Translations under genes and position numbers: made by a program
Notes under the pieces: model-generated
Told to the model about the DNA's origin: nothing
Database searches by the model: none
The model's input: only the letters and a program-made list of their open reading frames with translations
Shown here: piece after piece, positions 7,902-62,497 of the stretch
How the letters are laid out: the number at the start of each line of letters is the position of its first letter
Numbering within the stretch: position 1 is the first letter of the stretch
Source of the DNA: Neorhizobium galegae
GTDB taxonomy: Bacteria > Pseudomonadota > Alphaproteobacteria > Rhizobiales > Rhizobiaceae
Direction: 5' to 3'
NCBI RefSeq assembly: GCF_017877055.1
Contig: NZ_JAGIPG010000003.1
Span: 1-64,000 of the forward strand
DNA: 64,000 bases

Positions 7902-7926
7902 GATCTATTCCCCTCTATTGTTAGTT

Positions 7927-9006
7927 TCAATTTTTAGTTGAGGGCAGGGCGACGCATCCGCCGCTCGGCCAGGTAATCAGAACGTCTTGGCCCGGCATGA
8001 AGCCATTAACCTGAGGCGAATGCGGCACCCGCACCTTCATCTCTCGCCCGTTGACCGAAACGAGGTACCGCGTGGTATTGCCCACGAAAGTCCGCTCGGT
8101 AATCGTACCGGTTAGCCCGGTACCTGCCCCTGGAGAGTTCAGCCTAAGGTAATCAGGACGCACCATCAGTTCGACCCGAGCGCCCTGGGCAAAGGCCGCC
8201 CCACGAGCATTGACCGTCTCGCCAGTACCGAGCAGGCGGACCTGCGTACCAGATGCGTCGGAACCCAGCACTTCAGCCTGAAGAACGTTGGTATCGCCTA
8301 CAAAATTCGCGACGAACAAAGAGGCCGGGCTGTCATAGATCTCCTGTGGCGATCCGACCTGCTCAATCTGTCCTTCGTTGACCACGGCGATCCTGTCGGA
8401 CATGGTCATCGCTTCCTCTTGGTCATGCGTGACGAATATGAAGGTCGTGCCCACCCGCTTCTGAATGCGCTTCAGCTCCTCCTGCATCTGCTGGCGCAGC
8501 TTCAGATCCAAGGCCGAAAGCGGTTCATCCAACAACAGCACGGCGGGCTCGGTCACCAGCGAGCGAGCCAAGGCGACACGCTGCTTCTGTCCGCCCGATA
8601 GCTGATGCACGAGCCGGTCGCCATAGCCTGCGAGGCCGACCATAGCCAGCGCATCCTCAGCTTTCCGCTCGGCAATCGCGCGGCTCTCTTTGCGCAGGAT
8701 CAATCCGAAGGTCACGTTTTCGCGCACATCCATATGCGGAAACAATGCCAGGCTCTGCATCACCATGCCGATCGGACGGCGATAGGTCGGCACCTTGGTG
8801 ACATCCGCGCCGTCGATCATAATCCGTCCCTCGGTGGGCGTCTCGAATCCGGCAATCATCCGCAGCAGGGTCGTCTTGCCACAGCCGGAAGGCCCCAACA
8901 GCGACAGGAACTCCGCCCCTCGGACATTCAGGCTGACATTTTGAACCGCCTGCACCGGCCCGTAACGCTTCATCACGCGGTCGACCTGCACTTCGCCTGC
9001 GGGCAT
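7927..9006 (-). CDS. ABC transporter ATPase, PotA-like
   Basis: A 359-residue ATPase powering the Pot-type importer. Walker [10 protein letters not shown] at 38-46, Q-loop Gln84, signature LSGGQ at 136-140, Walker B VLLLDE at 156-161, and a C-terminal TOBE_2 domain from about 280 that often carries ligand regulation. It is the promoter-proximal gene of the minus-strand operon, which then runs binding protein, PotB, PotC, aldehyde dehydrogenase, alcohol dehydrogenase, esterase and FAD oxidase. Gaps between genes are short (10-75 bases), so one transcript is likely. Confidence 0.9.
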
Positions 9007-13057: not shown

Positions 13058-14527
13058 ATGGAAACAGTTATAATCGGAAACGGGATCATTGCCCTGACAA
13101 CCGCGTTTCGCCTCGCGAAAAGGGCAAGCGCTCGGGATCTTATCACTATCATCGGGCCGCGCGCCCGCGCGGGTTCTGCGACCCGAGCGGCGGGCGCCAT
13201 GCTGAACTCGTTTGCCGAGATCGAAAAAGGATCGCTCGATCACGAAATTGACATGTTCCGTTTCGAACTCAGCCATTTAGCGGGGAGAATGTGGCCGCGC
13301 TTCGAGAATGAAATGATCGAAGCCGGCGCATCTTGTCTGCCATTGGGATGCAGGAAGTGCTCTGGCTTCGGCGGCGGCGGTTGCGTTGATACCGGTACCT
13401 ACGTTGTCAATAACACCGCCGCAGATGATCTGGATGACGAAAACTACGATGCAATCGTCGATGCCCTAGAGCAATTCGACGAACCGTTCAGGCATGTCTC
13501 GCCAAGAGACATCCCAAACTATCTGCCGGAACAGAAGGCGCGAGCAACACGCGCCCTCTACATTGAAAATGAAGGCTGGTTCAATCCGAAACTAATTTTG
13601 GAGAAGCTCGACAATCTTCTCAAGCGGTTCCCTCAGGTAAGGTTCGTTGATGCCGAAGCACAACGGCTGTTGAAGACGGCTAAGGTATTAACCGGGGTTG
13701 TGCTTTCGAATGGGGAAACGCTCGTTGGTGACACCTACCTCCTGGCGACAGGGGCGACGGTCACGGATCTGATTGAAAAGAGCGATCTGGGGATTGATAT
13801 CCAGCGCATTTTCTATGGCGTTGGGGTTTCGCTTGAAATCAGAAGCCGCGACTTTCCGCACACCAAGGTCATAAGGACGCCTAACAGGGGGCTCGCGTGC
13901 GGTATTTACAGCGTACCATTCTTCCGTGATCCCGACGAGCCACAAGACCATATCCTGATCGGTGCGACGAATTTTATTTCTCCCACTCCGTACAACTATG
14001 GCCGCCTTACCAGCGTCGAAACGCTGATGAAAGCCGCTATGGAACAGATCAACGTTAATTTTTACAAGGCTGATCTCGTCGGCATCAATGTAGGCTGGCG
14101 TCCGACAAGCCAGGATGGCTATCCGCTGATCGGCCGGACCTCGATTTCGAACCTAGTTGTCTGCACCGGGACCAAGCGTGACGGGTTTCATCTGTCGCCG
14201 CTGCTTTCGGAGATACTGGCGAACATCATACATGGCGACAAGACGGATGAACGCCTTGAGTGGTTTCATCCCGAACGCAAGCCGTTGCGTATTCTTAGCC
14301 GCGAGGCAGCAATCGAGAAATCAATCAAGCATATGATGAGCGCCGCCTATCAGCACGGCTTTACGCCTTCACCAGGCGGACTTACGCGACAAATCATCGA
14401 AAGTCATAAGGCCAACTTAGAAAGGCTGCATGATGATGTCGGAGCCCACGACTGGGGCATCCCGCCGGACATGCTGGATATGTACCGGTACGGTCATGCG
14501 AAAACTGACCTGCGGCAAAATAAATGA
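13058..14527 (+). CDS. FAD-dependent oxidoreductase, DAO-like, in the glycan cluster
   Basis: A 489-residue flavoprotein. GNGIIA near residues 7-12 is the nucleotide-binding loop (middle Gly of the usual GxGxxG replaced), followed by GSATRAAGAML, and a C-terminal FAD-closing segment with GWRPTSQDGYPLIGRT at about 350. Those features fit the DAO/glycine-oxidase superfamily. Four cysteines cluster at residues 93, 98, 101 and 109 around a glycine run (SGFGGGG), which is not typical of DAO proteins and could bind a metal or form disulfides. The last codons overlap the SMR gene by 4 bases (ATGA). Whether it oxidises an amino sugar or another cluster intermediate is unknown. Confidence 0.72.
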   Translation: METVIIGNGIIALTTAFRLAKRASARDLITIIGPRARAGSATRAAGAMLNSFAEIEKGSLDHEIDMFRFELSHLAGRMWPRFENEMIEAGASCLPLGCRKCSGFGGGGCVDTGTYVVNNTAADDLDDENYDAIVDALEQFDEPFRHVSPRDIPNYLPEQKARATRALYIENEGWFNPKLILEKLDNLLKRFPQVRFVDAEAQRLLKTAKVLTGVVLSNGETLVGDTYLLATGATVTDLIEKSDLGIDIQRIFYGVGVSLEIRSRDFPHTKVIRTPNRGLACGIYSVPFFRDPDEPQDHILIGATNFISPTPYNYGRLTSVETLMKAAMEQINVNFYKADLVGINVGWRPTSQDGYPLIGRTSISNLVVCTGTKRDGFHLSPLLSEILANIIHGDKTDERLEWFHPERKPLRILSREAAIEKSIKHMMSAAYQHGFTPSPGGLTRQIIESHKANLERLHDDVGAHDWGIPPDMLDMYRYGHAKTDLRQNK

Positions 14528-14892
14528 GATTTTTTCTCGCACTGGCTCCGACCATCTCCTTCGTAGTATATGGGCAGTTGATGCTCAAGTGGCGCGTAGG
14601 CACACTTGTGAAAGCGGGAGTGCTCAATGGAGGAATTTGGGAACGATTAGTTTCCTATTTGATTGATCCCATTATCGTATCTGGCTACGTAGCGGCATTT
14701 CTCAGCTCGCTTTCGTGGATGATAGTGGTTGAGCGGTATGCGCTGAGCTTGGCATTTCCGGTCTACATTGGGATGACTGTATTTCTGGTTACGCTCGGAA
14801 GCGTCGTTCTACTGGGAGAGAATTTAAATGCACAGAGGATTCTCGGAATTTTCATAATATTACTCGGAGTTATACTTTGTAGTCAGTCGTAA
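14524..14892 (+). CDS. small four-helix membrane transporter (SMR/ArnE-like)
   Basis: A 122-residue integral membrane protein with four hydrophobic segments (about 3-22, 48-66, 72-94, 98-118) and the size and topology of the EmrE/DMT small multidrug resistance family. In polysaccharide clusters such proteins are often ArnE/ArnF-like flippases for undecaprenyl-phosphate-linked sugars. Its start overlaps the FAD gene stop (ATGA). The glycosyltransferase that would make the lipid-linked sugar is 2.3 kb upstream and the GT-C transferase is 2.4 kb downstream. A drug-efflux role cannot be excluded, but the context argues against it. Confidence 0.7.
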   Translation: MRFFLALAPTISFVVYGQLMLKWRVGTLVKAGVLNGGIWERLVSYLIDPIIVSGYVAAFLSSLSWMIVVERYALSLAFPVYIGMTVFLVTLGSVVLLGENLNAQRILGIFIILLGVILCSQS

Positions 14893-14962
14893 TAGATGCT
14901 GACTGATTGGTGCCACTAACACCATCCCTCCCTCTAAAAACGGCATAAAGTGCGGATACAAA

Positions 14963-15868
14963 ATGAGGAAATATGAGGATATCGATCAATGGCTGGAAAA
15001 AGCCAGGGCGTATTTTTCTGTAAATGCTCCGCAGTTGCTCGGCATATTTGACACCTATTCCGCAGAAGCGCGATTTTCGGTTGACCATATCCGTGGGGAC
15101 CTGGAATCTTTGCGCCCGGATGCGAAGATTCTAGAGGTTGGCGCAGGTTCCTTTCTGCTGACATGCTTTCTAAAGTCTGCAGGTTACCAGATCGTTGGAC
15201 TTGAACCCGTCGGCGATGGATTTTCACACTTTGATCAAATGAGGACCTTGGTCCTTAGGTGCGCGGCTGAAGACGGTATTGAGCCCGAGTTTCTGGGGGC
15301 TTACGCGGAAGATTTGGACGTCGATCTAGTATATGATTATGCGTTCTCAATTAATGTGATGGAGCATGTGGGAAATGTCGATCGAGTCATCGAGCGGGTT
15401 GGGCGAGCGCTAAAACTGGGGTGTTTTTACAGATTCACCTGCGCAAACTATGCCTTTCCTTACGAACCGCATTTTAATATTCCGACCCTCTTCTCAAAAA
15501 GGTTAACACGTTACGTGTTTGACAGCCGGATCAGGTCCAAGGCGGACCTACTTGATAACGAGGGTATCTGGGCGTCGCTTAACTGGATCACGACCTCATC
15601 AGTCAAACGAGCGGTGCGTAGGATCCCTTCTCTCAACGTCAAAATGAATACGCATATGCTTGAAAAGGCAGTGAAGCGGCTTGCAACAGACCGTGAGTTC
15701 GCAGCTCGCAGATCTCCATTTATGCTTCGTTTCGTGGCTTTCTTAGTTGCAATTAAAGCGCATAAATTTTTCTGGATCGTACCCGCCGAAATTCAACCGC
15801 TAATCGATTGTTGGGTAGAGAAAATTTCAACACAGTCCCCGACTACACTGTCGCAGGTTGCAACCTAA
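14963..15868 (+). CDS. class I SAM-dependent methyltransferase
   Basis: A 301-residue protein with a SAM-binding motif (KILEVGAGSFLLTCF around residue 53-67, then VGLEP as the acidic end of beta-2) and a typical motif II/III (FSINVMEHVGNVDRVI), as in UbiE/sugar methyltransferases. The C-terminal ~120 residues are unusual and hydrophobic near the end, perhaps for membrane or substrate docking. Converges with and overlaps the next methyltransferase by 4 bases at the 3' end. Together with the other two it points to a heavily methylated glycan. Confidence 0.75.
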   Translation: MRKYEDIDQWLEKARAYFSVNAPQLLGIFDTYSAEARFSVDHIRGDLESLRPDAKILEVGAGSFLLTCFLKSAGYQIVGLEPVGDGFSHFDQMRTLVLRCAAEDGIEPEFLGAYAEDLDVDLVYDYAFSINVMEHVGNVDRVIERVGRALKLGCFYRFTCANYAFPYEPHFNIPTLFSKRLTRYVFDSRIRSKADLLDNEGIWASLNWITTSSVKRAVRRIPSLNVKMNTHMLEKAVKRLATDREFAARRSPFMLRFVAFLVAIKAHKFFWIVPAEIQPLIDCWVEKISTQSPTTLSQVAT

Positions 15869-48884: not shown

Positions 48885-50750
48885 TCACTTGATGCCCGAG
48901 AGGTCGAAGGCGGGGACCACGTCTCCTTCCGTGCGGAACAGCCGTTCCAGTTCCGCCACATCCGGGCATGCGGGGACGGACTCCAGAAATGCCGGGTCTA
49001 TCCCGGTTTTGGGGAGCGCGATGACCGCTGTCGCGAGCAGCGTCGTCCCGGCCTCGATCGGTCCACGAAGCTGGGGAAGCAGCGTCTTTGCGTGAATGAG
49101 GTTGGTATTGGCGATCGGGCTCATGGCATGGCCTTCTCGCCCGAAGGCAGGCGAGAGGTCGACGATGGCGCTTGTGTCGGTTTGGCCGCGCCAAACGGCG
49201 AAACCTCTGCCTTGCTCCGCAATATCGGTATTAAAATCCGCCTGCTCGACGGCGAAGCCGCCTTCCGTCGTTTGAAGAGCGCGGGGCGTGACAATGCGGT
49301 GGATGCGGATATGCCAGGGGTTGGCCGGCACCAGCCATGTCTCTACCGTGACATCGCTCCAGGGCTTCCAGCGGGAGTAGAGCCTGTCACCGGCGATCAG
49401 CGCCTGCTCGAGCGTCTCGCGCATGCGAAAATGCGTGCCGTCGTCGGAGAGACCCAGCATGCCGTCAAAACTTGCGGCCGCGAAATGCCGGTCGTTGGCC
49501 TCGATGTTGAAGGCGTAGCGGGTGGAATAGACGAACTTCGAATATTTTTCGTTGGCACCGCGCATCCTGTCGTGCTGCTGACCGGAGGCGAGAACCACGA
49601 CATTGCCGGGCGTGTGCATGGCGACCATGCCGGGTTCCTTGAGTGGAACAGGGTCGGCAAAGGATGGCGCGGGCGCTTCTTGCGCCATCCAAAAGGCGTG
49701 GTCGGCGGGCAGGGCCAGGGGCAAAAAGAATTTCATCGCCCAATAGGGCGAGCAGGGCGAGTTGTAGCTCTCGCTCATCAAGAGATTGGGATAACCGTAG
49801 CCGATCGACAGCACCCCGTCGCGGTCGGCGATCGGAAGTTTCGACCACCAGCGGATATGGCGCATGTAATAGCCTTTGATCTCGGCCCACGGCAGGGCCT
49901 CGACGCCCGCAAACGCCAAGGCGCCCCAAAAGCCGCCGGCCGCAAACCGATATGTCTGGCTGCGCCCGAAGGCGAGGGCAGCGCCATCCGGGCCGAACCA
50001 GTGACGGATATCCTGCGCAAACACCCGGGCACGTTCGCGATAGGCATCGCCGCGCGCGGTATCGACCTTTGCCAGAACCGAATAGATCAGCGCATAAAAA
50101 TGCATCGCAAACGGGATATAATGGTCGACGCGCTTCACCGGCCCGTCGCGATACCAACCTTCGCCAAGCCGAAAGGCCTCCGTCTCGTCGAGATACTTCT
50201 CCGTCATGGATCGGTCGAAGCTTATGCCGACGCGTGCGAGGCCGAGATCGATGAGAACCCGGAAGAATTTCCAGTTGTTGTCGATGAATTCCTTGTCGCG
50301 GGCGGACAGGAGGTAGGCCGCGACGGTTTTCTTCTCTCCTTCGCTCAGCGGCTCCCAGATATGTTCGGGCACCGTGGCAAGCGCAAAACCGACCGCGGCC
50401 AGTTCCACCTGACGCTGGTCGCGATCGGAAATGTCGCCCCAATATTCCGGATGGGACGGATCGGTGCCGCTTGCGAGGCCGCGGCGGTAGAGATCCCAAT
50501 GGGGGAAATCATGGCCTCCGGCTGCGAGCGGTACGATACCCCAGAGCGGTCGGGCGAAACCTTCGAGGTCGGCCGCGGCACGGTCGAAATGCGCGCCTGT
50601 CGCGCTCAGGCGGACCCGCGCGCCGCCTGGCGAAAAATAGGGAAGAAGCGGTTTGAACAGATCCAGGACCGCCTGGCCAAGATCGTCTCGGGACAGAAGA
50701 GGGTTCCCGTATAGGGGATTAGCTCGAACTGGGTCGTAGATCACTGGCAA
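48885..50750 (-). CDS. DUF2264 domain protein
   Basis: A 621-residue protein matching the DUF2264 family: NPLLSRDDLGQAVLDLFKPLLPYFSPGGARVRL, LWGIVPL, GWYRDG, and VDHYIPFAMHFYALIYSVL all look like this family. The N-terminal half is predicted to form an (alpha/alpha) toroid like unsaturated uronyl hydrolases and polysaccharide lyases; the second half is beta-rich. No signal peptide is apparent. Its gene follows a sugar-binding protein gene and a terminator, in a polysaccharide utilisation locus. Activity unknown. Confidence 0.8.
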   Translation of the reverse strand: MPVIYDPVRANPLYGNPLLSRDDLGQAVLDLFKPLLPYFSPGGARVRLSATGAHFDRAAADLEGFARPLWGIVPLAAGGHDFPHWDLYRRGLASGTDPSHPEYWGDISDRDQRQVELAAVGFALATVPEHIWEPLSEGEKKTVAAYLLSARDKEFIDNNWKFFRVLIDLGLARVGISFDRSMTEKYLDETEAFRLGEGWYRDGPVKRVDHYIPFAMHFYALIYSVLAKVDTARGDAYRERARVFAQDIRHWFGPDGAALAFGRSQTYRFAAGGFWGALAFAGVEALPWAEIKGYYMRHIRWWSKLPIADRDGVLSIGYGYPNLLMSESYNSPCSPYWAMKFFLPLALPADHAFWMAQEAPAPSFADPVPLKEPGMVAMHTPGNVVVLASGQQHDRMRGANEKYSKFVYSTRYAFNIEANDRHFAAASFDGMLGLSDDGTHFRMRETLEQALIAGDRLYSRWKPWSDVTVETWLVPANPWHIRIHRIVTPRALQTTEGGFAVEQADFNTDIAEQGRGFAVWRGQTDTSAIVDLSPAFGREGHAMSPIANTNLIHAKTLLPQLRGPIEAGTTLLATAVIALPKTGIDPAFLESVPACPDVAELERLFRTEGDVVPAFDLSGIK

Positions 50751-50808: not shown

Positions 50809-52089
50809 TTACTTGATGGCCTTCACGCCTTCGGTCATTTCCTTCAGGCCGTCGTCGATTGAGATGTTGTCGGTCATGATCGAGTCATGCGCACGGTTAA
50901 GAACAACTTCGATCTTCGCGGCATTTGGATTGACGGCCATTTCCAGGAAGGACTTGCCGGCTTGGAGTGCGTCCTTGCTCGTCTGATCCTGCGGGAACCC
51001 CGGCAGCGATGCGATCTTGGCGGTGACTTCCGGCGTGCGAACGGTCGGGATCGTGCCGGTGCCGGCAATGATGGCCGCCCCTTCCGGGCCGGTGACGAAC
51101 TTGATGAAGTCGAGCACCTCGGCCTTGTGAGTGGAGTTGGTGTTGACGGCGAGACCGGAAATCTGCGCTGCGGTTGTGCCTGCTGCAACGCCATCCGGAT
51201 GCGGGAACTTCACGATTCCCCAGTTCTTGCTCTTGGATTCGCCGGAGGCAACCTTGGCGATCTGGGTGCCGACGAACCAGGTACCCATCGGCAGCATGCC
51301 GATCGTGCCGTTGAAGAACAGCGCCGAATAGTGAGTGTTGGAGGTTTTCAGCGACCCATAGGACGGAACGACGCCGGCCTTCTGCAGGGCAAGGGCGCGC
51401 TCATACCACGGCTTCAGGAAGGCGTAGTCCGGACCCGCCAGTGTCTGTTTGCCGTTGAGAATGCCCGGAAGCTGGACCGTGGAGCGCCACGTGTGGAAGA
51501 GCGCGCCATAGGTCTTGTTCGCGCCCATGCCGCCGGCGAGCTTGGTGGCGATCTGGTCGAACTGCGTCCAGGTCAGGTCGTTGGTCGGGTAGGCAACACC
51601 GGCCTTGTCGAAAATGTCCTTGTTGTAGTAGACGACCCAGAAATCCGAACGGAACGGCAGGGCATAGACCTTGCCGTCGATCTTGAGTTCGTCGACGAGG
51701 CCGCCGAAGGACGCGGGATCGATTTTCTGTTCCGTCATGAAGCCGGTGAGGTCCGAGATCGAACCGGCACGGACGAGGTTCGCGTAGTTCGGAACGTCCT
51801 TGACGGTGACGATGTCGATATCCTTGGAGCCGCCCGCGAGCTGCGTGGCGATCATCTGCTGGTAGTCCTGTGAACCGAGGTCGACGGATTCGAACTTAAC
51901 GTTCGGATGTTTGGCCTGGTATGCCGCTATCAGTGGCTTGTAGTACGCGACCTTGTCCCAATCCCACAACGCCCATTTAAGCGTCACGGCGTCCCCCGAC
52001 TGTGCGTAGGCCGATCCTGCGATAGAACCCGCCAAGGCAAGACCCGCCATCGCGAACTTTGCCGATCTCCCGAGTTTTTCCAAATACAT
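50809..52089 (-). CDS. sugar ABC transporter solute-binding protein (family 1)
   Basis: A 426-residue binding protein with signal peptide (cleavage after AYAQ, about residue 30), mature GDAVTLKWALWDWDKVAYYKPLI, then NVKFESVDLGSQDYQQM. Family 1 proteins bind mono- to oligosaccharides. It serves the two permeases and UgpC-like ATPase upstream. Terminator directly after suggests it is the last gene of the transport transcript and may be separately stabilised. Confidence 0.88.
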   Translation of the reverse strand: MYLEKLGRSAKFAMAGLALAGSIAGSAYAQSGDAVTLKWALWDWDKVAYYKPLIAAYQAKHPNVKFESVDLGSQDYQQMIATQLAGGSKDIDIVTVKDVPNYANLVRAGSISDLTGFMTEQKIDPASFGGLVDELKIDGKVYALPFRSDFWVVYYNKDIFDKAGVAYPTNDLTWTQFDQIATKLAGGMGANKTYGALFHTWRSTVQLPGILNGKQTLAGPDYAFLKPWYERALALQKAGVVPSYGSLKTSNTHYSALFFNGTIGMLPMGTWFVGTQIAKVASGESKSKNWGIVKFPHPDGVAAGTTAAQISGLAVNTNSTHKAEVLDFIKFVTGPEGAAIIAGTGTIPTVRTPEVTAKIASLPGFPQDQTSKDALQAGKSFLEMAVNPNAAKIEVVLNRAHDSIMTDNISIDDGLKEMTEGVKAIK

Positions 52090-52119: not shown

Positions 52120-52851
52120 TTAGATATGCGTAGCGTCACCAGCCTGCGGTTCGCGATGCGCCTGTATTGCCATTGGCAGGGCTAGAACCATGACCGCTGC
52201 CCGATGGACGCCGAATGCGACGGCGAACATTCCGAGTGAAAAGTTGAGGGTGGCCGGCATGAACACGGACACCGGATAAAAGACGATATGCGCGAGCCAG
52301 AGCGCAGCCACGAATGCAAGCGCGCCGAGCGCCGGCAGTGGACGGACGACCGATGCAATGGCTGCCAGCCTGAGCAGCGTTGGCGCCGAAAGATCACGCA
52401 TCACCATCAGCACGACGAGGTGGCAGGCCACCACGACGATGAAGACGGTCGCGACCAGTGCGATCGTCAGCGGCAGGGCCAGCACGAGATTGTCTTTCGC
52501 GGTCGCGGCATAGGTGACGATCGCATAGACGCCGAGGCCGATGGCAAGGGTGAAGGCCAGCCCCCACGCGGTCGCGCGCCAGAAATACCGGAAAAACGCT
52601 TCGACAAAGTCGCGCAGGAGATAGGTGTTCCGGTCCTCGACGAAGGCGACCGAAATGCGGGCGGTCGCGGCGATGGCGGCGGGAATGGTGACGACGAATA
52701 GTGCGGCCAGAATGAACAGGATGTTCAATTTGACCATCTCCCACCATTCGCGCGCGAACGTGTCGGCGAAAAGGGCGAGACCGGTCTTCTTCGGCGCATT
52801 CTTCGGAATGCCCGGCCCTTCCTTCGTCCACATGTCGCGCAGCCATTGCAT
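52120..52851 (-). CDS. DUF624 (YesL-like) membrane protein
   Basis: A 243-residue membrane protein with about five hydrophobic segments; the N-terminal stretch KTGLALFADTFAREWWEMVKLNILF is the DUF624/YesL signature. YesL-type proteins sit beside oligosaccharide ABC transporters in pectin and rhamnogalacturonan loci, with undefined role. Start ATG 52851 after GGAGA; a much longer frame running into the ATPase region is an artefact. Confidence 0.78.
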   Translation of the reverse strand: MQWLRDMWTKEGPGIPKNAPKKTGLALFADTFAREWWEMVKLNILFILAALFVVTIPAAIAATARISVAFVEDRNTYLLRDFVEAFFRYFWRATAWGLAFTLAIGLGVYAIVTYAATAKDNLVLALPLTIALVATVFIVVVACHLVVLMVMRDLSAPTLLRLAAIASVVRPLPALGALAFVAALWLAHIVFYPVSVFMPATLNFSLGMFAVAFGVHRAAVMVLALPMAIQAHREPQAGDATHI

Positions 52852-52871
52852 GGCCGTCTCCTCCCGCGCGC

Positions 52872-53981
52872 CTAATAAAGGATCGAGCGCTCCGTTTGCT
52901 TGTCGAACAACTGCATATTGGTGGTGTCGACGACCAGCTTGACCTCCTCGCCGATCGCGCCCTTGAAGCGGGGCGACACGCGCGCGATGAGGCTGCGCCC
53001 GCCGGCGACGATATTGAGGTGGATTTCCGAGCCCATGGGTTCGGCGAGTTCCATGAGGGCGCTGAAGGGCGCCAGATTTTCCGCTGCAATATCGGCCGGC
53101 GGCAATTCGTGAAAATTCTCGGGCCGGATGCCGATGACCAGTTCGCGGCCTTCGTAGGGTGCGATGCGGTTTTTGTCGAAATGCGCCGGCAATGGCAGTT
53201 CCCGCCCGTCGAACGAGGCAAAATATCTCTCGCCTCGCCGCTCGATCACGGATGGCATCATGTTCATCTGCGGCGCGCCGATAAAGCCCGCGACGAACAT
53301 GTTGACGGGGCGATCGTAGAGGTTCTGCGGCGTATCGACCTGCTGGATATGCCCGTCCTTCATCACCACGATGCGGTCCGCCATTGTCATCGCCTCGATC
53401 TGGTCGTGGGTGACGTAGATGAAGGTGGCATCGAGACGCTTGTGCAGCTTGGTGATCTCGGCGCGCATGGTGCCGCGAAGCTTGGCGTCGAGATTGGAGA
53501 GTGGTTCGTCGAGCAGGAAGACCGCCGGATTGCGGACCATGGCACGTCCGAGCGCGACGCGCTGGCGCTGGCCGCCGGACAGAGCCTTCGGCTTGCGGTT
53601 GAGAAGGTGGGTGATGTCGAGGATCTTCGCAGCGTCCTGAACCTGGCTGTCGATGAAATCCCGGGACACTTTCCGAAGCTGCAGGCCGAAAGCCATGTTC
53701 TTGTAGACGGTCATATGCGGGTAAAGCGCATAGTTCTGGAAGACCATGGCGATGTCGCGGTCCTTGGACGGCACGTCGTTCATCATGTTGCCGCCGATCT
53801 GAAGCTCGCCGCCGGAAATCTCTTCCAGCCCGGCGATCATCCTGAGCGTCGTCGATTTGCCGCAACCCGAAGGCCCGACGAGGATGATGAATTCCTTGTC
53901 GGCGATCTCCAGATCGATGTCATGGACGACAGTCAGCGCGCCGTAGGACTTGTTCAGTTTTTTCAGTGAAATGCTGGCCAT
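52872..53981 (-). CDS. sugar ABC transporter ATPase, UgpC/MsmK-like
   Basis: A 369-residue CUT1 ATPase: Walker [10 protein letters not shown], signature LSGGQRQRV, Walker B VFLLDE with SNLD, C-terminal TOBE domain with IRPENF. Follows GH88 by 9 bases. Powers the two permeases of this cluster. About as divergent from the Ugp ATPase at 38.1 kb as expected for separate systems. Confidence 0.9.
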   Translation of the reverse strand: MASISLKKLNKSYGALTVVHDIDLEIADKEFIILVGPSGCGKSTTLRMIAGLEEISGGELQIGGNMMNDVPSKDRDIAMVFQNYALYPHMTVYKNMAFGLQLRKVSRDFIDSQVQDAAKILDITHLLNRKPKALSGGQRQRVALGRAMVRNPAVFLLDEPLSNLDAKLRGTMRAEITKLHKRLDATFIYVTHDQIEAMTMADRIVVMKDGHIQQVDTPQNLYDRPVNMFVAGFIGAPQMNMMPSVIERRGERYFASFDGRELPLPAHFDKNRIAPYEGRELVIGIRPENFHELPPADIAAENLAPFSALMELAEPMGSEIHLNIVAGGRSLIARVSPRFKGAIGEEVKLVVDTTNMQLFDKQTERSILY

Positions 53982-53990
53982 CGGATTCTC

Positions 53991-55163
53991 TCACCAATAG
54001 GAAGACCAGGCGCGCGACAGGCGCGTCAGGGCTTCCATGTAATAATAGTCGCCCCACGAGACGCACTCGTCGACGCCTTCGCCGCGGCAGGTGTTGTAGG
54101 GCGATTTCTTGGAATAGGTCCCATGCAGGACGAGGCCGTTGGAGATCGCCGGGTCCTTTACCGCGTAATGCTCGACGAGGCTTTTCATCATGCGGCGCGC
54201 AAGCTCACGGTAACGCGCGGCCACGTCTGCTTCGACCAGCTCGGCCATTTCGAGCAGCCCGCAGGCGACGATTGCGGCTGCCGAGCTGTCGCGGGGCTCG
54301 CCATCTCCGTCCGAGAATACCAGATCCCAATAGGGCACCAGGTCGGCTGGCAGCTTCTTTAGATAGAAGTCGAGAAGCCGGTCGAAGGTGTTGCGATATT
54401 CGTCGATCGGCTCGTAGCGATAGGAAAGCGCCATGCCGGCGATGCCCCACGCCTGCCCGCGCGCCCAGAAACTGTCGTCCTTGTAGCCCTGCTTCGTTGC
54501 ACCACGAACAGGTGCACCGGTAACCGGGTCCATGTAGAACGTATGGTAGGTGGAATCGTCCAGCCTGACCGAGTTTGCCAGCGTCGTGCGGGCATGGATG
54601 AGCGCGATGTCGCGATATTTTGGATCGCCAGTCTCGCGGCTTGCCCAATAAAGCAGCGGCAGGTTCAGCAGGCAGTCGATGATGTAACGATATTCCTCCG
54701 CGACACCCTTGCGGCCCCAGGCCTGGATGAACTGGCCGATCGGCTGGAAGCGCTCGACAAGCTGGTCCGCGGCCAGAATGGCGGCCTTGCGCCCGTCCTC
54801 ATCGCCGACCAGCTTCCATGCCGCGATGCACGATGGCGAATAGAGAAAGCCCATGTCGTGGTGGTCGGTCTCGATGCGGTTCTCGATCCGGTGCAGGAAA
54901 CTCTGCACCTGGATCTGCGCCGCATGCTGAAAAACCTTGTCGCCTGTGTGCTCGAACGCCAGCCAGATTTCTCCCGGCCAGAAGCCTGCGGTCCATTGGG
55001 TATTCTCGACGGCGGGATAAAAATTGCCGACGCTGGAATGGTTCTGGGACGCATAGGTGAAGGCCGGCAGATTGTGCCGGATCTGGGCGACGGCGAGATC
55101 GAGCGCTGCCTTGACCTCGACATCCGTGATCGGTTGGGGAGCGATCTGCACAACGGCATTCAT
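53991..55163 (-). CDS. unsaturated glucuronyl hydrolase, GH88 family
   Basis: A 390-residue cytoplasmic hydrolase. DHHDMGF (Asp103) and the second acid in IIDCLLNLPLLYW (Asp163) correspond to the two catalytic aspartates of Bacillus UGL (Asp88 and Asp149); FWARGQAWG and GDYYYMEALTR complete the family signature. GH88 enzymes open the 4,5-unsaturated uronic acid ends made by polysaccharide lyases acting on glycosaminoglycans, gellan-type or other uronate-containing chains. No signal peptide, so acts on imported oligosaccharides, between permease and ATPase genes. Confidence 0.9.
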   Translation of the reverse strand: MNAVVQIAPQPITDVEVKAALDLAVAQIRHNLPAFTYASQNHSSVGNFYPAVENTQWTAGFWPGEIWLAFEHTGDKVFQHAAQIQVQSFLHRIENRIETDHHDMGFLYSPSCIAAWKLVGDEDGRKAAILAADQLVERFQPIGQFIQAWGRKGVAEEYRYIIDCLLNLPLLYWASRETGDPKYRDIALIHARTTLANSVRLDDSTYHTFYMDPVTGAPVRGATKQGYKDDSFWARGQAWGIAGMALSYRYEPIDEYRNTFDRLLDFYLKKLPADLVPYWDLVFSDGDGEPRDSSAAAIVACGLLEMAELVEADVAARYRELARRMMKSLVEHYAVKDPAISNGLVLHGTYSKKSPYNTCRGEGVDECVSWGDYYYMEALTRLSRAWSSYW

Positions 55164-55167
55164 GACG

Positions 55168-56004
55168 TTAACCCTTGAGGCCCGATGAGGCGACGCCTTC
55201 GACGAAGAAGCGCTGCAGCGACAGGAAGACGATCAGGACGGGAATGAGGGCGACGACCGATGCCGCCATGATCAGCCCGTATTCGGCGGAATATTGCGAG
55301 ATGAACATACGCAGGCCGATCTGGATCGTCTTCAGCTCCGTCTTGGTCAGATAGATCATCGGGCCGAGGAAGTCGTTCCAGGTGGTGACGAAGGTGAAGA
55401 TGGTCAGCGTCGAGAGCGCGGGCTTGGACAGCGGCAGCATGATGCGCGCCCAGATCTGATATTCGTTCATGCCGTCGATGCGTGCCGCCTCGCAAAGCTC
55501 CGTCGGGATCGACATGTAGAACTGCCGCATGAGGAACACGCCGAAGGCGGTGAACGCCTGCAGGCAGATCAGCGCCAGATGCGTATTGTTCAGACCGAAT
55601 TCGCGCATCAGCAGGAACTGAGGCACCATATAGACCTGCCAGGGCATGGCGATCGTCGCGATATAACCGAGGAAAAGCGTGTTCTTGTAGGGAAAATCGA
55701 GCTTGGCAAAGGCATAGGCGGCGAAGCTCGACGTCAGCAGCTGGAGCAGAGTGACGATGATCGTCAGCTTCGATGTGTTGTAGATGAAGAGGCCGAGCGG
55801 GATCTTCGTCCAGATGTCCACGTAGTTCTGCCACTGCGGTTGCGATGGAATCCACTCGATCGGAAAGACGAAGACGTCGCGGCTGAGCTTCAACGAGGCA
55901 GAAAGCATCCAAGCGAAAGGCATCAGCATCACGGCGGTGATGACGATGACCGTCGCATAGATTGCGACCCTCTTGGCAGTGATCTTGTGTCCGGCAATCT
56001 TCAC
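55168..56004 (-). CDS. sugar ABC transporter permease (MalG-like)
   Basis: A 278-residue permease with six helices and EAARIDGMNEYQIWARIMLPLS as EAA loop. MalG/LacG type, second permease of the cluster. Overlapped by almost nothing (3-base gap) with the partner permease and 4 bases from GH88. Confidence 0.9.
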   Translation of the reverse strand: MKIAGHKITAKRVAIYATVIVITAVMLMPFAWMLSASLKLSRDVFVFPIEWIPSQPQWQNYVDIWTKIPLGLFIYNTSKLTIIVTLLQLLTSSFAAYAFAKLDFPYKNTLFLGYIATIAMPWQVYMVPQFLLMREFGLNNTHLALICLQAFTAFGVFLMRQFYMSIPTELCEAARIDGMNEYQIWARIMLPLSKPALSTLTIFTFVTTWNDFLGPMIYLTKTELKTIQIGLRMFISQYSAEYGLIMAASVVALIPVLIVFLSLQRFFVEGVASSGLKG

Positions 56005-56007
56005 GGA

Positions 56008-56958
56008 TCAATCCTCCCTCTGTCGGCGGAACTGGACGACCGTGACTGCCAGCACGAGAAAGAAGAGAACGAGCGCAATCATGCTGGAATAACCGAGGTC
56101 CCAGGAAATGAAGGCTTCGTTGTAGATGTGATAAACGAGGACAAGCGTCGAGGTGCCGGGGCCGCCCTGGGTGATCATGTAGATCTGATCGAAGACCTTG
56201 AACGACTGGATCGTCAGCATGACGGTCACGAAAAAGGTCGTGGGGGCGAGCTGCGGCACGGTGACATAGATGAACTTCTGCCACGAATTGGCACCGTCGA
56301 GATCGGCCGCTTCGTAAAGCTCGGAATTGATGCCCTGCAGCCCGGCGAGATAGACGACCATGTAATAACCCATGCTCTTCCAGATGCCGAAGAGGATGAC
56401 CGTCACCATCGCCCAATGCCGGTCGGCCGCCCAGCCCGGCATGTCCTTGGGGTCGAGGCCGAGCGTGTAGAGGATCATGTTCACCGGCCCCATTTCGGGG
56501 TTGAAGATCATGTTCCAGACCACGGCGACAGCCACCAGCGACGCGACGTACGGAAAGAACATTGCCGTTCGGAAGAAGTCGCGCCCGAAAATCTTCTGGT
56601 TCAGCAGGATCGCCAGGCCGAGCGCGCAGGCAAGCGTCGCGGGCACCGACACGACCGTATAGATGATCGTGTTCCAGAATGCGGCAATGAAGACCTTGTC
56701 TTCGAACAGCCGCCAGAAATTGTCGAGACCGGCGAAGGTGATCGCATTGGAGCCGTCCCAATGCATGAACGCCAGCACGAAGGCGAACAGGATCGGTCCG
56801 AGCGTAAAGACGGCAAAACCGAGGAAATTCGGGGCGATGAAGGAGTAGGCGACCAGCGCGCTCTGTATCTTGCGCCGGCGGCGCGACAACACCTTGCTCG
56901 GCCGCCGGGACGCGGCCGGCGCATCACCCGCGGCAATGGTCGAATTCGATATGGACAC
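56008..56958 (-). CDS. sugar ABC transporter permease (MalF-like)
   Basis: A 316-residue permease with an N-terminal cytosolic arginine-rich segment (RRPSKVLSRRRRKIQSALVAY), six helices and EAADLDGANSWQKFIYVTVPQLAP as EAA loop. First gene of the minus-strand transport/GH88 operon. The region upstream (56959-57178) is the divergent promoter shared with the lyase-like gene. Confidence 0.9.
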   Translation of the reverse strand: MSISNSTIAAGDAPAASRRPSKVLSRRRRKIQSALVAYSFIAPNFLGFAVFTLGPILFAFVLAFMHWDGSNAITFAGLDNFWRLFEDKVFIAAFWNTIIYTVVSVPATLACALGLAILLNQKIFGRDFFRTAMFFPYVASLVAVAVVWNMIFNPEMGPVNMILYTLGLDPKDMPGWAADRHWAMVTVILFGIWKSMGYYMVVYLAGLQGINSELYEAADLDGANSWQKFIYVTVPQLAPTTFFVTVMLTIQSFKVFDQIYMITQGGPGTSTLVLVYHIYNEAFISWDLGYSSMIALVLFFLVLAVTVVQFRRQRED

Positions 56959-57134: not shown

Positions 57135-57178
57135 AGGTGGCGAATGAGGTCGTTTATCGGTCGCATGGAGGAAGGCTG

Positions 57179-58960
57179 ATGTTCAGCGAGATCGCCGGGT
57201 CTTTGCCGCCGGTTTTGGGGGACTTCATGCCCGGCGCGCCGATCGGCGATCGGGCCGCCTGGGATGCCGTATCGGATGATATGCGTTCCGCAGTCATCCG
57301 GGATGCGGAGGCGGCGCTTGGCCGGCCGTGGTCGCTCATCAAGGCTTCCGACTACCGGGAATATTCGCTGAACGGGAACCGCTCCCGCTTTGAGGCGCTG
57401 TATTTTTCGCGGCGGCGGATGTTGAACGATATGGTTCTTGCCGAGCTGCTCGAGGGCAGGGGGCGTTTCATCGATGCAATCGTCGACGGTGTCTTCCTGA
57501 TCTGTGAGGAAAGCGGCTGGCAGCTTCCGGCTCACAACGCCTACGAGCGGGGCGGACAGCGGTTTGCCTTGCCCGATACGGAGCAGCCGGTCATCGATCT
57601 GTTTGCGGCGGAGACGGGTGCCCTGCTGGCGACCGTGGCCGCTCTGATGAAAGATCGGCTCGACGAGGTCAGTCCGCAGGTCGTCGCCCGGATCGAGCGG
57701 GAGGTCCGGCTGCGCATCGTGTCGCCCTATCTCGACCGGCATTTCTGGTGGATGGGAAACGGCACTGAGCGAATGAACAACTGGACGGCGTGGATAACGC
57801 AGAACGTCCTGCTTTCGACCTTTGTCCTGAAGACGGAACAGGACCTGCGGCGGCGGATCGTCGGGAAGGCCCTTTCCAGCCTGGATGCCTTCATCAAGGA
57901 TTACGCGGAGGACGGGGCCTGCGAGGAGGGAGTGGTTTATTATCGCCATGCGGCGCTCTGCATGGCCGGGGCGATGGCCATTCTCGACACGGTTGCTCCA
58001 GCTTCGATGACGCCGCTCTGGAAGGCTCCAAAAATCCGCGGCATGGCGGAATATATCGTCAACATGCATGTCGCCGGCCATCACTATTTCAACTTTGCCG
58101 ATTCCGCCGCCGTCGTGGAACCCTGCACCGTGCGCGAGTATCTCTTCGGTAAGGCCGTTGGGTCGAACGTATTGGCGGCATTCGCCGCGCGCGACCGGCT
58201 GTCGTCTGGGCACAGGCACCTGCCAGAGGAATGGAACCTCTGGTACCGCGTGCAGGAGCTGCTGGTAACGCCGGCAGTCGGCACCGAACCGAAGCCGCCG
58301 GATGATATGTTTTATCCCGGGATCGGCCTATTCGTTGCCCGCGACGACCGCTTCGCGCTCGCCGTCAAGGGCGGCAATAACGGGGAAAGCCACAACCACA
58401 ACGACGTCGGCAGCCTGACGGTCTACAAGGACGGCAAGCCGTTCCTGGTCGACGTCGGAGTCGAAACCTACACCGCCAAGACCTTCTCCTCCGAGCGCTA
58501 CGACATCTGGACCATGCAGTCGGGTTTCCACAACCTGCCGACTTTCGGAGAGGTGAACCAAGCCGACGGCGCGGAATTCGCGGCGCGTAATGTCCATACC
58601 GAGTTCACCGAAGACCAGGCGCAAATATCTCTGGACATCGCAACCGCCTATCCGGTCGAGGCGCGCGTGCGGTCCTATCGGCGAACCGTCACGCTCCGGC
58701 GCGGGCGGGAGATCGAGGTCGTCGACATCCATGAGGGTGACCTGCCGGCCGTGCTTTCGCTGATGACCTGCGTCGAGCCGATTATCCACCATGCGCTTTA
58801 TTTCGAAGGCCTCGGCCGCATCGATCTCGAAGGAGCCGGCGAGGTCGAGATTGACGCAATCGACATCGACGATGCCCGCCTGCGCATCTCCTGGTCCTCG
58901 AGAATTTATCGACTGCGCATCCCCTTTGCCGGAACGCGCCTGCAACTGCGGATCGTCTGA
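57179..58960 (+). CDS. heparinase II/III-family protein, putative polysaccharide lyase
   Basis: A 593-residue protein with an N-terminal alpha-helical toroid and a C-terminal beta-sandwich. GNNGESHNHNDVGSL, FLVDVG, and Tyr/His-containing stretches afterward (ERYDIWTMQSGFHNLP) correspond to the heparinase II/III-like domain, where Tyr and His act in beta-elimination. No signal peptide is seen, which suggests that it works inside the cell on imported oligosaccharides and hands its unsaturated product to the GH88 enzyme. ATG 57179 has GGAGGAAGG upstream; a longer frame is rejected. Confidence 0.8.
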   Translation: MFSEIAGSLPPVLGDFMPGAPIGDRAAWDAVSDDMRSAVIRDAEAALGRPWSLIKASDYREYSLNGNRSRFEALYFSRRRMLNDMVLAELLEGRGRFIDAIVDGVFLICEESGWQLPAHNAYERGGQRFALPDTEQPVIDLFAAETGALLATVAALMKDRLDEVSPQVVARIEREVRLRIVSPYLDRHFWWMGNGTERMNNWTAWITQNVLLSTFVLKTEQDLRRRIVGKALSSLDAFIKDYAEDGACEEGVVYYRHAALCMAGAMAILDTVAPASMTPLWKAPKIRGMAEYIVNMHVAGHHYFNFADSAAVVEPCTVREYLFGKAVGSNVLAAFAARDRLSSGHRHLPEEWNLWYRVQELLVTPAVGTEPKPPDDMFYPGIGLFVARDDRFALAVKGGNNGESHNHNDVGSLTVYKDGKPFLVDVGVETYTAKTFSSERYDIWTMQSGFHNLPTFGEVNQADGAEFAARNVHTEFTEDQAQISLDIATAYPVEARVRSYRRTVTLRRGREIEVVDIHEGDLPAVLSLMTCVEPIIHHALYFEGLGRIDLEGAGEVEIDAIDIDDARLRISWSSRIYRLRIPFAGTRLQLRIV

Positions 58961-58971
58961 GGAGGACGAGC

Positions 58972-59760
58972 ATGGAATTGACACTGAAAGTCGTGGATGT
59001 GGCGGGCGAGGTTCGCGCCGAGGCAACGGCTATGGACGAGGCCTATCTCGTCTATCGCAACGTCTACAAGGAGGGCGATCAGGTCGTCGTCGAAGCATCT
59101 GAGCCGGGATATCTGATGCTCGCCCTCGACGACGCGATGGCTCCCGCCATCGTCTATATGAAGGGCGGGACCTATGCGCTCGGGGTACCCTTCGGTTCCA
59201 AGCGCATTCCCTATTCACCGCGGGCCTTCGAGGGCGGAATCCACAGGTTATGCGTGCGCAAGGCGCGGGCGGAGGAAATCGCCGCGCGCCGGAACCTCGC
59301 CCTCAATCCGTGGGATGACCATGCCAACGCCTCCGTCTTTCCGCATGCCAAGGCGAATGTGGAGACGCGTGGAGAGGCGGTTTTCGCGGCGCGCAACGCC
59401 ATCGACGGTGAAAAGGCCAATGACGATCATGGCTTCTGGCCCTATACAAGCTGGGGGATCAATCGCGACCCCGAGGCGACGCTGACCCTCGATTTCGGTC
59501 GGCCGGTGAAAATCGACGAAATCGTCCTCTACCTGCGAGCCGATTTTCCGCACGACGCATGGTGGGAAGAGGCGAGCGTCACCTTTTCCAACGCCGAAAC
59601 CGTGTGTTTTTCACTGATCAAAACGGGTGCGGCGCAATGCTTTCCGGTGAGGGGACAGACGGTTGAATGGATCAGGCTGCACAGCCTGATCAAGGCCGAC
59701 GATCCTTCGCCCTTTCCGGCGCTGACGCAGATCGAGGTCTGGGGACGTGAAGCGGATTAG
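58972..59760 (+). CDS. unknown protein with a C-terminal discoidin-like domain
   Basis: A 262-residue protein whose second half (from about 125, NALDGE-like NAIDGEKANDDHGFWPYTSWGINRD) looks like an F5/8-type-C/discoidin or CBM32-like beta-sandwich with LTLDFGRPVKIDEIVLYLR. The N-terminal half is not recognised. No signal peptide. Starts 11 bases after the lyase with an AGGAGGA-type site; they share a transcript and probably a substrate. No function can be claimed. Confidence 0.6.
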   Translation: MELTLKVVDVAGEVRAEATAMDEAYLVYRNVYKEGDQVVVEASEPGYLMLALDDAMAPAIVYMKGGTYALGVPFGSKRIPYSPRAFEGGIHRLCVRKARAEEIAARRNLALNPWDDHANASVFPHAKANVETRGEAVFAARNAIDGEKANDDHGFWPYTSWGINRDPEATLTLDFGRPVKIDEIVLYLRADFPHDAWWEEASVTFSNAETVCFSLIKTGAAQCFPVRGQTVEWIRLHSLIKADDPSPFPALTQIEVWGREAD

Positions 59761-59803: not shown

Positions 59804-60541
59804 TCAGCTTGAAAACGCCTTGAAATCCCTCAGCACATCCCGGTAGCGGATCTGGCTGCCTCTCAGGTGGTCGCGCATGGCATTGCGCGCCGCCTCCTCG
59901 TTGCGATCCGAGATCGCCACGACGATCGCTTCGTGTTCCTTGTGGATCATGCGGCGGTAGGCGGTCTGTTCACCGGACCGTTCGCCGGGTGTTGCCCTCG
60001 ATTGCGGAATAGCCGCGGTGCCATGAAATTCCAGATGCTGCCGGAACAGCGGATTGTTGGTGGCGTCGGCGATGGCGAAATGCAGTGCGAGATCCGCCTC
60101 GCGGATGGATTCATTCTGTTCGATGCACCGCAGAATTTCACGATGACGCTCGAAGATCGCCTCTTCCTGGGCTGGAGACCGGCGCATGGCAGCCAGACCG
60201 GCAGCCTCGATCTCCAGCGGCGCCCGCACCTCGAGCACCTCCAGATCGGACGAGACGCGCGCCCGGTCGATTTTCCGACCCGAAGGGGCCGGAGCATCCT
60301 GGCTGAGAACATAAATTCCCGCCCCCTGCCTCACTTCGACAAGCCCATCCGAGCGCAGCGCGGCGACCGCTTCGCGGATTACCGTCCGGCTTACGCCATG
60401 CGTTTCCGTCAGTTCCACCTCGCTCGGGAGCTTGTCACCGGGGGAGTATTGGCCGCCGGCAATGGCTGCCCGAAGGCTTTCGCCCACCCGTGACACCAGT
60501 GATCCCGGTCCCTTGTTCCGATCCTTGGTCTGGGTCGTCAC
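59804..60541 (-). CDS. GntR-family regulator, FCD subfamily
   Basis: A 245-residue regulator: GESLRAAIAGGQYSPGDKLPSEVELTETHGVSRTVIREAVAALRSDGLVEVRQGAGIYV is the winged-helix GntR domain, followed by an all-helical FCD domain with the metal-binding His/Asp residues (ALHFAIADAT and HKEHEAIV). FCD regulators usually respond to uronates, keto-acids or dicarboxylates. GTG 60541 with GGGGA six bases upstream is preferred over an alternative TTG. Convergent with the discoidin-like gene, divergent from the acetyltransferase. It is the natural regulator of the locus. Confidence 0.9.
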   Translation of the reverse strand: MTTQTKDRNKGPGSLVSRVGESLRAAIAGGQYSPGDKLPSEVELTETHGVSRTVIREAVAALRSDGLVEVRQGAGIYVLSQDAPAPSGRKIDRARVSSDLEVLEVRAPLEIEAAGLAAMRRSPAQEEAIFERHREILRCIEQNESIREADLALHFAIADATNNPLFRQHLEFHGTAAIPQSRATPGERSGEQTAYRRMIHKEHEAIVVAISDRNEEAARNAMRDHLRGSQIRYRDVLRDFKAFSS

Positions 60542-60592
60542 GCTCAATCCCCACTGCAACGATGCGACGCATCTGCGCCGTATTCATCACAC

Positions 60593-60603: not shown

Positions 60604-60832
60604 ATTCCGGTCCATATCAATCCAAGAGTAAATTCCATTTGTCTTTGGCAGCATCAAACGGGCCAAACGACCTCCGAAACTAAAGCTGGACGCTTAAATT
60701 TGTCTGCTGTATCTCATCGATTGGCCGAATACTGAAAATTGGTATGATGACATAGGCGTGCCATTTGAAGATATCCGTCTGCCGGGAGCATATGGGCATA
60801 AGCCTGCTTCGAGGCGTTGGAGGAGGTGCAGG

Positions 60833-62497
60833 ATGAGTGAGGGAATGCGGATCGATCCAGAGCCGGAATCCGAGATGGATCGAGAAGCCAGGCTGCAATT
60901 CCTCACCTGGGAGCGCAAACCTGCGGATATTGAAAGCGATCTCCAAAAGAAATTGAAGGAGAAGCTGGCGCAATCTGCAGGTGCGCAAATCGCAGAAACC
61001 GCTTACATCGCAAGAGATGCCCGCATTTTCACATCCTCTCTGATCGTCGGCGATCGTTCCTGGATTGCGGGGCATGCTCTCGTGCGGGGAGATGTGGAAA
61101 TCGGCTCCGGTTGTTCGGTCAACCCTTACGCCTGTATTTCCGGAAAGGTCCGGTGCGGAAACGGTGTGCGCATTGCGTCGCTCGTTTCGATCGTCGGTTT
61201 CAACCACGGTTTCGACGATCCCAATATGCCCATCAACGATCAGCCTCACGAGACGCTCGGCATTACGATTGGCGATGATGTGTGGATCGGCGCCAATGCA
61301 GTCATTCTTGACGGCGTGACGATCGGCAGCGGTGCGGTTATCGCAGCCGGGGCCGTTGTCACCAAAGACATTCCCGATCTGGCGATCGCGGCAGGGGTGC
61401 CGGCCAAAGTCGTGCGCCGCCGCGGCGAAACGGCAGCCGCTGGAAAGTCGCGCCGGGGCGAGGTCGAGCAGGCGTTGCTGCGGGTCAGCAAGATGGCCGA
61501 AACCGAATGGCGGGATGTGCTGGAACGGCATCTGACGCCGAACGGCTATCTATCGGCGGACGCCGATGGCACAGCACACATGAGCGTCAGGCACGAATGC
61601 GATGCGATCGAGATCGCCGCCGGTTTTGGAGAACAGCCTTCGGGGAACGAGGCTAAGGCAATCGTCGATCGTTTGCAGGCGCTGCAGGATCCTTCCACCG
61701 GCTTTTTCCCCGATCCGTTTCGTTCACCCGACCCCGCGAAGAATATCCGTGACGATTCCCCGGCTCTTTATAACATCCTTGCGGTCGGTTATGCGCTGGA
61801 GATACTCGGCGCGCAGCCCGCCAACCCCATTTCCGACGTCGAGATGGACGCCGTTGCACTTTGCGATTGGCTGGAGGCCCTGCCCTGGAGCACACGTGCA
61901 TGGTGGTGCGGCGACCGGGTGGACGCCATCGCCACGGCGTTTTATCTCAACGCCCGGTATTTCAAGAGCGGCAGGGGCAGGGAAATCCTCTTTGGCTGGC
62001 TGACGACCCATGTCGATCGTTCGACCGGACTGTGGGGAAAGCCGACCGCGGAACAGGGGCTCCTGCAACCGGTTAACGGCTTTTATCGCCTCACCCGCGG
62101 AGCGCATGCCCAGTTCGGCATCCCAGTCCCATTCCCTGAGGCCGCTATCAATTCCGTGATGTCGCATTATCGAAACAACGGCGGTTTTTCCGGCCCGACC
62201 TATACGGCCTGCAATCTGCTCGACACGATCCATCCGCTTTGGCTGTGCCTCAAGCAGACGGACTTCATGCGTGGCCAGGCGGAAGCGGTAGCTGAGGACA
62301 TCATTCTGGGTTCGCCGGACCGGTGGCAGGAAAAAAGGGGCTTCGCCTTCGCCGATGGTCAGGCTGGAAGCCTGCAGGGCACGGAAATGTGGCTTTCGAC
62401 CCTGCATCTTGCCGCAGACCTTTTGGGCATTGCGGAAGTCTTCGCCTTCATTCCAAAAGGAGTGCACCGGACGCGACCGGCGGGAATGGGGCTGTAG
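60833..62497 (+). CDS. hexapeptide-repeat acetyltransferase fused to an alpha-helical domain
   Basis: A 554-residue two-domain protein. Residues about 70-215 form a left-handed beta-helix acyltransferase ([78 protein letters not shown]), close to maltose/galactoside O-acetyltransferases. Residues about 230-540 form an alpha-helical region with repeats ([57 protein letters not shown]) resembling an (alpha/alpha) toroid, not assigned to a named family by me. ATG 60833 follows GGAGGAGG. It is next to the GntR regulator and the uronate locus, so it probably acetylates or deacetylates oligosaccharides of that polymer. Confidence 0.7.

Follow-up and report, generated by a model that had tools for sequence, protein, structure and literature searches.

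The main finding of this work was the identification, in a 64,000-nucleotide stretch of Neorhizobium galegae DNA (hereafter, the window), of a gene whose product joins a left-handed beta-helix (LbH) acetyltransferase to a helical toroid of an unnamed family, and which occurs together with DUF2264 genes far beyond chance. We propose, with a probability of about 0.55, that this two-domain protein is an O-acetyltransferase whose C-terminal barrel binds, and perhaps also processes, uronate oligosaccharides within a glucuronate-oligosaccharide catabolic pathway. The tie to DUF2264, absent from the initial annotation of this DNA, is the strongest clue. The kind of enzyme is known; as far as our searches reach, the family of the fused domain and its place in a pathway are undescribed, since in the open-licence PubMed Central papers nothing relevant to the two-domain architecture was found and none named DUF2264. 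The features of the region are the following.

48885-50750, minus strand: DUF2264 protein, related to beta-glucuronate dehydratase (GH154); Pfam E 2.1e-126
50809-52089, minus strand: sugar-binding protein, SBP_bac_1
52120-52880 (limits approximate), minus strand: DUF624 protein; match inside the long frame 52120-53865, annotated in A. vitis
52872-53981, minus strand: MalK-type ABC ATPase
53991-55163, minus strand: GH88 unsaturated uronyl hydrolase; PDB 2zzr (unsaturated glucuronyl hydrolase), E 1.8e-113
55168-56004 and 56008-56958, minus strand: two sugar ABC transporter permease genes, assigned by position and kin
57137-58960, plus strand: heparinase II/III-like lyase, PL33-like; PDB 8r75, E 8.5e-98
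58972-59760, plus strand: F5/8 type C (discoidin-like) protein; scores exactly at the Pfam cut-off
59804-60559, minus strand: GntR/FCD regulator, divergent left neighbour of the two-domain gene
60833-62497, plus strand: two-domain protein (LbH acetyltransferase and alpha-toroid), 554 amino acids
61010-61432, plus strand: LbH (hexapeptide) acetyltransferase domain, residues about 60-200, putative catalytic N97 and H125; Pfam Hexapep
61433-62494, plus strand: C-terminal toroid domain of an unnamed family, residues 201-554; no family match, AlphaFold2 model, alternate-helix invariants

The reading frame given in the initial annotation is present at 60833-62497. The open frame itself begins at a GTG at 60758, and ATG 60833 is a reasonable start because an SD-like GGAGGAGGT run lies just 5' of it; in an alignment with 14 other full-length proteins, the sequences become strongly conserved only from about residue 20 onwards. 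The gene had also been credited with its own promoter facing the GntR gene, a claim that did not hold, as the single site found (9 of 12 matches, against 0.5 +/- 0.7 sites expected) is at chance level. Existing records name the protein acyltransferase, hexapeptide transferase or DapH/DapD/GlmU-related protein. By eye, its sequence shows no signal peptide, so that the most likely site of action is the cytoplasm, with an imported sugar as substrate. The neighbouring uronate-polysaccharide locus that had been noticed earlier is borne out by the GH88, PL33-like and DUF2264 genes of the window. The permeases were recognized from a 316-residue BPD_transp_1 protein at the like place in another locus (L044) and from a gene order equal to that of A. 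vitis, in which the counterpart of the F5/8 type C protein, at the same position, is annotated as a carbohydrate-binding protein. The structure 8r75, matched by the lyase, belongs to a PL33 study (PMC11848413). In the PDB, the DUF2264 protein matches a beta-D-glucuronic acid dehydratase (9o4u, E 1.1e-26) and 8oi4, named beta-galactosidase (E 3.5e-21). According to the 9o4u paper, two members of the former GH154 family remove water from terminal glucuronate, one of them yielding a GH88 substrate, and dehydratase activity is proposed for the whole former family (PMC12269599). This activity is disputed, as other members were earlier reported to be beta-glucuronidase and beta-galactosidase (cited in PMC12269599); the name DUF2264 is unused in the available part of that paper.

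The N-terminal domain is indeed the LbH acetyltransferase that had been recognized at first reading. Its Pfam Hexapep match (residues 143-178) reaches E 5.6e-17 and 61.1 bits against a cut-off of 27, and the domain has the hexapeptide-repeat coils of LacA-like LbH acetyltransferases. The protein is matched by 51 NCBIfam models at E <= 1, and the best 25 of these 51, led by WbbJ- and NeuD-like biosynthetic acetyltransferases, all score under their own cut-offs. In the printed alignment, N97 and H125 stand opposite N85 and H115 of E. coli LacA (galactoside acetyltransferase, PDB 1kqa), which we take to be its active-site pair, the asparagine binding the substrate and the histidine being catalytic. 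Both residues are present in 86 of 86 sequences, including those of Streptomyces and Haloarcula (the set holds the window, 80 loci, Streptomyces, Haloarcula, the first piece of Frondihabitans, and genomes G670 and G466). The alignment with the LacA pair and this conservation indicate that the domain likely has a functional acetyltransferase site. The same LbH subtype was also seen behind a glycosyltransferase family 2 domain (Glyco_tranf_2_4) in genome G092 (L126:6096-7835, plus strand).

The C-terminal part had been described as about 300 helical residues without a named family. It is helical, with 12 helices in an AlphaFold2 model built from a 47-row alignment (mean pLDDT 91.2, pTM 0.91), and its length is about 345 residues instead. 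A match to a well-known family, which would have gone against the earlier description, was looked for and is absent: from about residue 235, no Pfam or NCBIfam family appears at E <= 1, and a 15-sequence profile of the domain (from residue 210) retrieved no PDB chain at E <= 10. The initial description, of an acetyltransferase joined to a toroid-like domain that belongs to no named family, is supported. The Foldseek search of the domain model against the PDB, as suggested in the initial annotation, gave nothing at E <= 0.001; the best rows were prenyltransferase beta subunits (E 5.2e-3) and MmpH (7qsj, 1e-2), followed by cellobiose 2-epimerase (5zig, 8.4e-2, TM-score 0.52) and GH105 (4ce7, 0.31). 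Toroids are therefore among the nearest folds, but a significant match to a solved toroid is lacking, the TM-scores being about 0.45-0.52. For the full-length protein, the model has a pTM of 0.66 and a pLDDT below 50 near the N-terminus, so that the relative placing of the two domains is not interpretable, and the matches listed in its fold search (best 50) are all to the beta-helix domain. Detectable kinship of the C-terminal domain with the DUF2264, GH88 and PL33 proteins of the locus was considered and rejected (hhalign probabilities of 0.7%, 0.1% and 0.4%, respectively). On a plasmid of Microvirga ossetica, two adjacent proteins without Pfam match lie in a sugar ABC locus (L118:6683-8765); the second (7704-8765, 353 residues), a free-standing protein, is distantly related to the toroid (profile probability 96.8% over 182 columns), so that this domain occurs on its own as well as joined to the acetyltransferase.

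The conservation of the domain follows its helices. In the 86-sequence alignment, whose invariant columns may contain as many as three gaps to accommodate truncated sequences, 31 of 99 positions on even-numbered helices are invariant versus 3 of 94 on odd-numbered ones, and 17 invariant polar or aromatic residues fall on the even-numbered helices (R253, D257, E260, Y313, Y320, D364, T368, N415, Y418, R419, R422, Q427, C460, D464, H467, E518 and W520) versus 1 on the odd-numbered. Such alternation is what inner and outer helices would be expected to show, and the model is consistent with six helical hairpins forming an (alpha/alpha)6 barrel around a conserved polar pocket at its centre, the inner and outer helices being assigned from the pattern rather than from coordinates. 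Such a pocket could be catalytic instead of a specificity module, or neither. A tentative alternative to our proposal is a bifunctional enzyme, in which the toroid is itself the catalyst, as a new (alpha/alpha)6 family of glycosidases, lyases or epimerases, and the beta-helix acetylates its substrate or product. Five carboxylates (D257, E260, D364, D464 and E518), three arginines, Y418, C460 and H467 are among the even-helix invariants, are kept from Alphaproteobacteria to Streptomyces and Haloarcula, and exceed what a binding module usually needs; moreover, enzymes (MmpH, cellobiose 2-epimerase and GH105) occur among the nearest folds, and the Devosia-type loci without GH88, described below, would need some other enzyme. 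We consider this alternative possible, though doubtful, as the toroid is without known activity, gave no fold match at E <= 0.001 and, at profile level, does not resemble the DUF2264, GH88 and PL33 proteins of the locus.

The fusion is old and is conserved in one protein. The C-terminal domain was detected in 27 of 100 genomes (the window's own and 99 relatives), in 26 of them within a single open frame of 545-804 codons, which leaves room for both domains; in the 27th (G003), two contig ends truncate the gene. A scan of genome contigs returned 204 relatives, of which the best 80 were kept and serve here to describe the architectures, lower-ranking ones falling outside this set. All 80, one of which (L079) begins at a contig end, are single frames that include the beta-helix part. 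Separate genes in close relatives, the outcome that had been named as contrary to a true fusion, were looked for and none occurred in the relatives seen. An artefact of chance or mis-assembly is excluded by the single frames in 80/80 kept loci and 26/27 genomes. The kept loci come mostly from Rhizobiaceae, Devosia, Pelagibacterium, Martelella and their kin. Plasmids of Streptomyces (L122) and of the archaeon Haloarcula (L123) carry the fusion as well, with toroids 41% and 44% identical, respectively, to that of the window; so does a Frondihabitans plasmid (L117), in which the frame is broken. Among plasmid records, 136 matched at E <= 1e-5, 115 of them from Rhizobium. When 289 genomes of the class were searched by profile, with up to seven candidates scored per genome, the window's own copy was the only one found, and the phage collection gave no match. 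In genome G710 (L128), a DDE transposase gene interrupts the fusion gene, a natural disruption.

Gene co-occurrence ties the fusion gene to DUF2264, which is present in 27/27 genomes with the gene versus 14/73 without it (Fisher p 1.8e-14, ignoring phylogeny), part of this contrast being that between the genus and other families. Within the window's genus the figures are 26/26 versus 14/31 (Fisher p 1.9e-6, again ignoring phylogeny), and in 26 of the 27 genomes both genes lie on one contig, within about 51 kb. GH88 is found in 26/27 genomes with the gene versus 24/73 without it (within the genus, 26/26 versus 20/31), and is less telling, because 20 of the 31 non-carriers of the genus have it too. 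Across 347 genomes of the order, DUF2264 occurs in 14 of 16 fusion carriers versus 15 of 331 others. This search scored four candidates per genome, so the 16 carriers may be an undercount; they were taken from 21 matching genomes, the interrupted G710 included, after dropping five in which the match covered only the beta-helix part (G092, G657, G552, G687 and G470), and two of them (G000 and G064) also belong to the 100-genome set. The two carriers without DUF2264 are G670 and G710. In addition, DUF2264 was present in 21 of 21 further genomes picked by hand from the 80 loci, some of which may duplicate genomes already counted, and which include ones where the two genes are not neighbours.

In the fetched flanks, which extend to at most 10 kb, 56 of the 80 loci contain DUF2264 (39), GH88 (17) or PL33 (18). 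This is a six-frame count, obtained with partner profiles made partly from these same loci; on predicted genes it is 47/80, because the simple gene caller dropped true genes. DUF2264 lies on the same strand and ends within 1.5 kb upstream of the fusion gene in at least 36 of the 80 loci, a lower bound because the fusion start was misplaced in six (L065, L075, L079, L080, L089 and L102). Thirty-seven loci have DUF2264 and neither GH88 nor PL33 in their flanks, and in 24 all three are absent from the fetched flanks: five of these run into a contig end within 3.1 kb upstream, 11 form a group of R. leguminosarum kind (L104-L107 and L109-L115; nine named Rhizobium and two Rhizobiales bacterium), and eight are others.

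The gene company varies among organisms. In A. vitis the whole gene set lies in one region, ending with DUF2264 and then the fusion gene. In Martelella and the Devosia-type loci (for example L064), the genes are those of an Opp-type transporter, DUF2264, a 2-hydroxyacid dehydrogenase, the fusion protein and ThuA, while in Haloarcula the fusion gene, an IclR regulator, GH88 and DUF2264 are close together. In G064, the one Devosia-type genome among the 100, no GH88-family match was found anywhere; GH88 cannot be the partner there, and an unsaturated sugar, if made, would be handled by something else. In G670 the fusion gene adjoins GH88 and a PL33-like gene, and G710 has frames similar to these neighbours. 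On the plasmid of Streptomyces sp. NBC_00184 (L122), the fusion gene occurs with GH28 and GH78, and DUF2264 is absent among the genes listed; two large proteins of this locus (L122:7505-9223 and 13596-15653) have no Pfam match at E <= 0.001. GH125 and GH92 lie near the fusion gene in the incomplete gene table of Frondihabitans. Conserved clusters of other neighbours, mostly of Devosia type, were also observed, for example L079:2114-2842 (23/80 loci) and L077:5117-6460 (17/80), and these two representatives had no Pfam match at E <= 1e-5. In R. johnstonii 3841, of the same Rhizobium-like kind as the 11 loci without nearby uronate genes, the fusion gene on pRL12 (L120, 10009-14856) is flanked by a LysR regulator on one side and a gene for a GGDEF-domain phosphodiesterase on the other.

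This last context, outside any sugar locus, would suit a different role, in which the beta-helix acetylates a precursor of exopolysaccharide or lipopolysaccharide and shared regulation accounts for the link with the uronate locus. The WbbJ- and NeuD-like top matches, all below their cut-offs among the best 25 of 51, and the close LbH relative fused to a glycosyltransferase point in the same direction. We consider this role unlikely, since the gene and DUF2264 occur together far more often than chance would predict, and since the Devosia-type loci, Martelella and A. vitis all repeat the arrangement with a transporter.

Taken together, our reading is that the protein belongs to a pathway of uronate-oligosaccharide catabolism, most often one with DUF2264. 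The adjacent ABC transporter would import a uronate-containing oligosaccharide to the cytoplasm, where the arginine-, carboxylate- and tyrosine-lined pocket of the (alpha/alpha)6 barrel would hold it. The N-terminal domain, of the LacA/maltose-transacetylase type, would move an acetyl group from acetyl-CoA to the held sugar by means of Asn97 and His125, while the PL33-like lyase, the DUF2264 dehydratase and GH88 would dismantle the chain. A sugar as acceptor fits the LbH-glycosyltransferase fusion of L126. Acetylation may serve the diversion of sugars that cannot be processed, as in LacA-like systems, or may be a chemical step of the pathway. Several observations weigh against this best explanation: the 24 loci without partners and the R. 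johnstonii context count against the uronate pathway, as do the 37 loci with DUF2264 only, the lack of GH88 in G064, the disputed activity of GH154, the absence of DUF2264 from G670 and G710, the GH28/GH78 context in Streptomyces, and the 14 of 73 genomes that have DUF2264 without the fusion gene.

A more specific scheme, which we hold to be very unlikely, is an acetyl-CoA-primed lyase cycle: the toroid would present a non-reducing-end glucuronate, the beta-helix domain would acetylate its 4-hydroxyl, and the DUF2264 enzyme would eliminate acetate, which leaves much more readily than water. The unsaturated sugar thus formed would be cleaved by GH88 or, in genomes that lack it, by a different enzyme. 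In PMC12269599, the efficiencies of two Bacteroides dehydratases on unacetylated substrates are low (0.54 and 0.35 per min per mM), which would fit such a cycle. The authors offer another reason, namely that chondrosine is a poor mimic (PMC12269599), and the activity of these enzymes without acetylation weighs against the scheme. Finally, a pure structural scaffold or sensor with two non-catalytic domains, for which no direct support was found, is highly improbable given the Asn/His pair kept in 86/86 sequences and the hexapeptide coils of acetyltransferase type.

The fusion gene is, in the sampled Hyphomicrobiales and one Haloarcula plasmid, a close genomic companion of the dehydratase family, and this company suggests an overlooked step in the breakdown of sugars containing glucuronic acid. 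If confirmed, the role proposed here would add a step to uronate catabolism and give a function to an orphan enzyme domain; were the acetyl-primed cycle true, it would be common to bacteria and archaea.

The protein can be compared with several known systems. The LbH-glycosyltransferase fusion (L126, 6096-7835) shares its LbH subtype, with 51% identity, whereas its partner is Glyco_tranf_2_4 and it has no toroid match. The stand-alone toroid of Microvirga ossetica (L118, 7704-8765) lies, together with a hydroxyacid dehydrogenase, in a sugar ABC locus, but has no acetyltransferase domain, and the NGFYRLTRG motif is not kept in its alignment. Among toroid folds, the best Foldseek matches are the beta subunits of GGTase and FTase, MmpH, cellobiose 2-epimerase and GH105, with TM-scores of about 0.40-0.52, although none is a family match (E 5e-3 to 0.3, identity 9-16%). 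In Bacteroides caccae, BcGDH is a GH154 beta-D-glucuronate dehydratase that occurs with GH88 (PMC12269599), and the window locus likewise has a DUF2264 relative and GH88; the word acetyltransferase is absent from the main text of that paper, and the toroid of the window is unlike DUF2264 in sequence. Like LacA and maltose O-acetyltransferase, the window protein has a hexapeptide beta-helix, an aligned Asn/His pair (in LacA) and a place in a sugar catabolic locus; unlike them, it carries a C-terminal toroid of 345 residues and stands in a uronate locus instead of a galactoside or maltose one.
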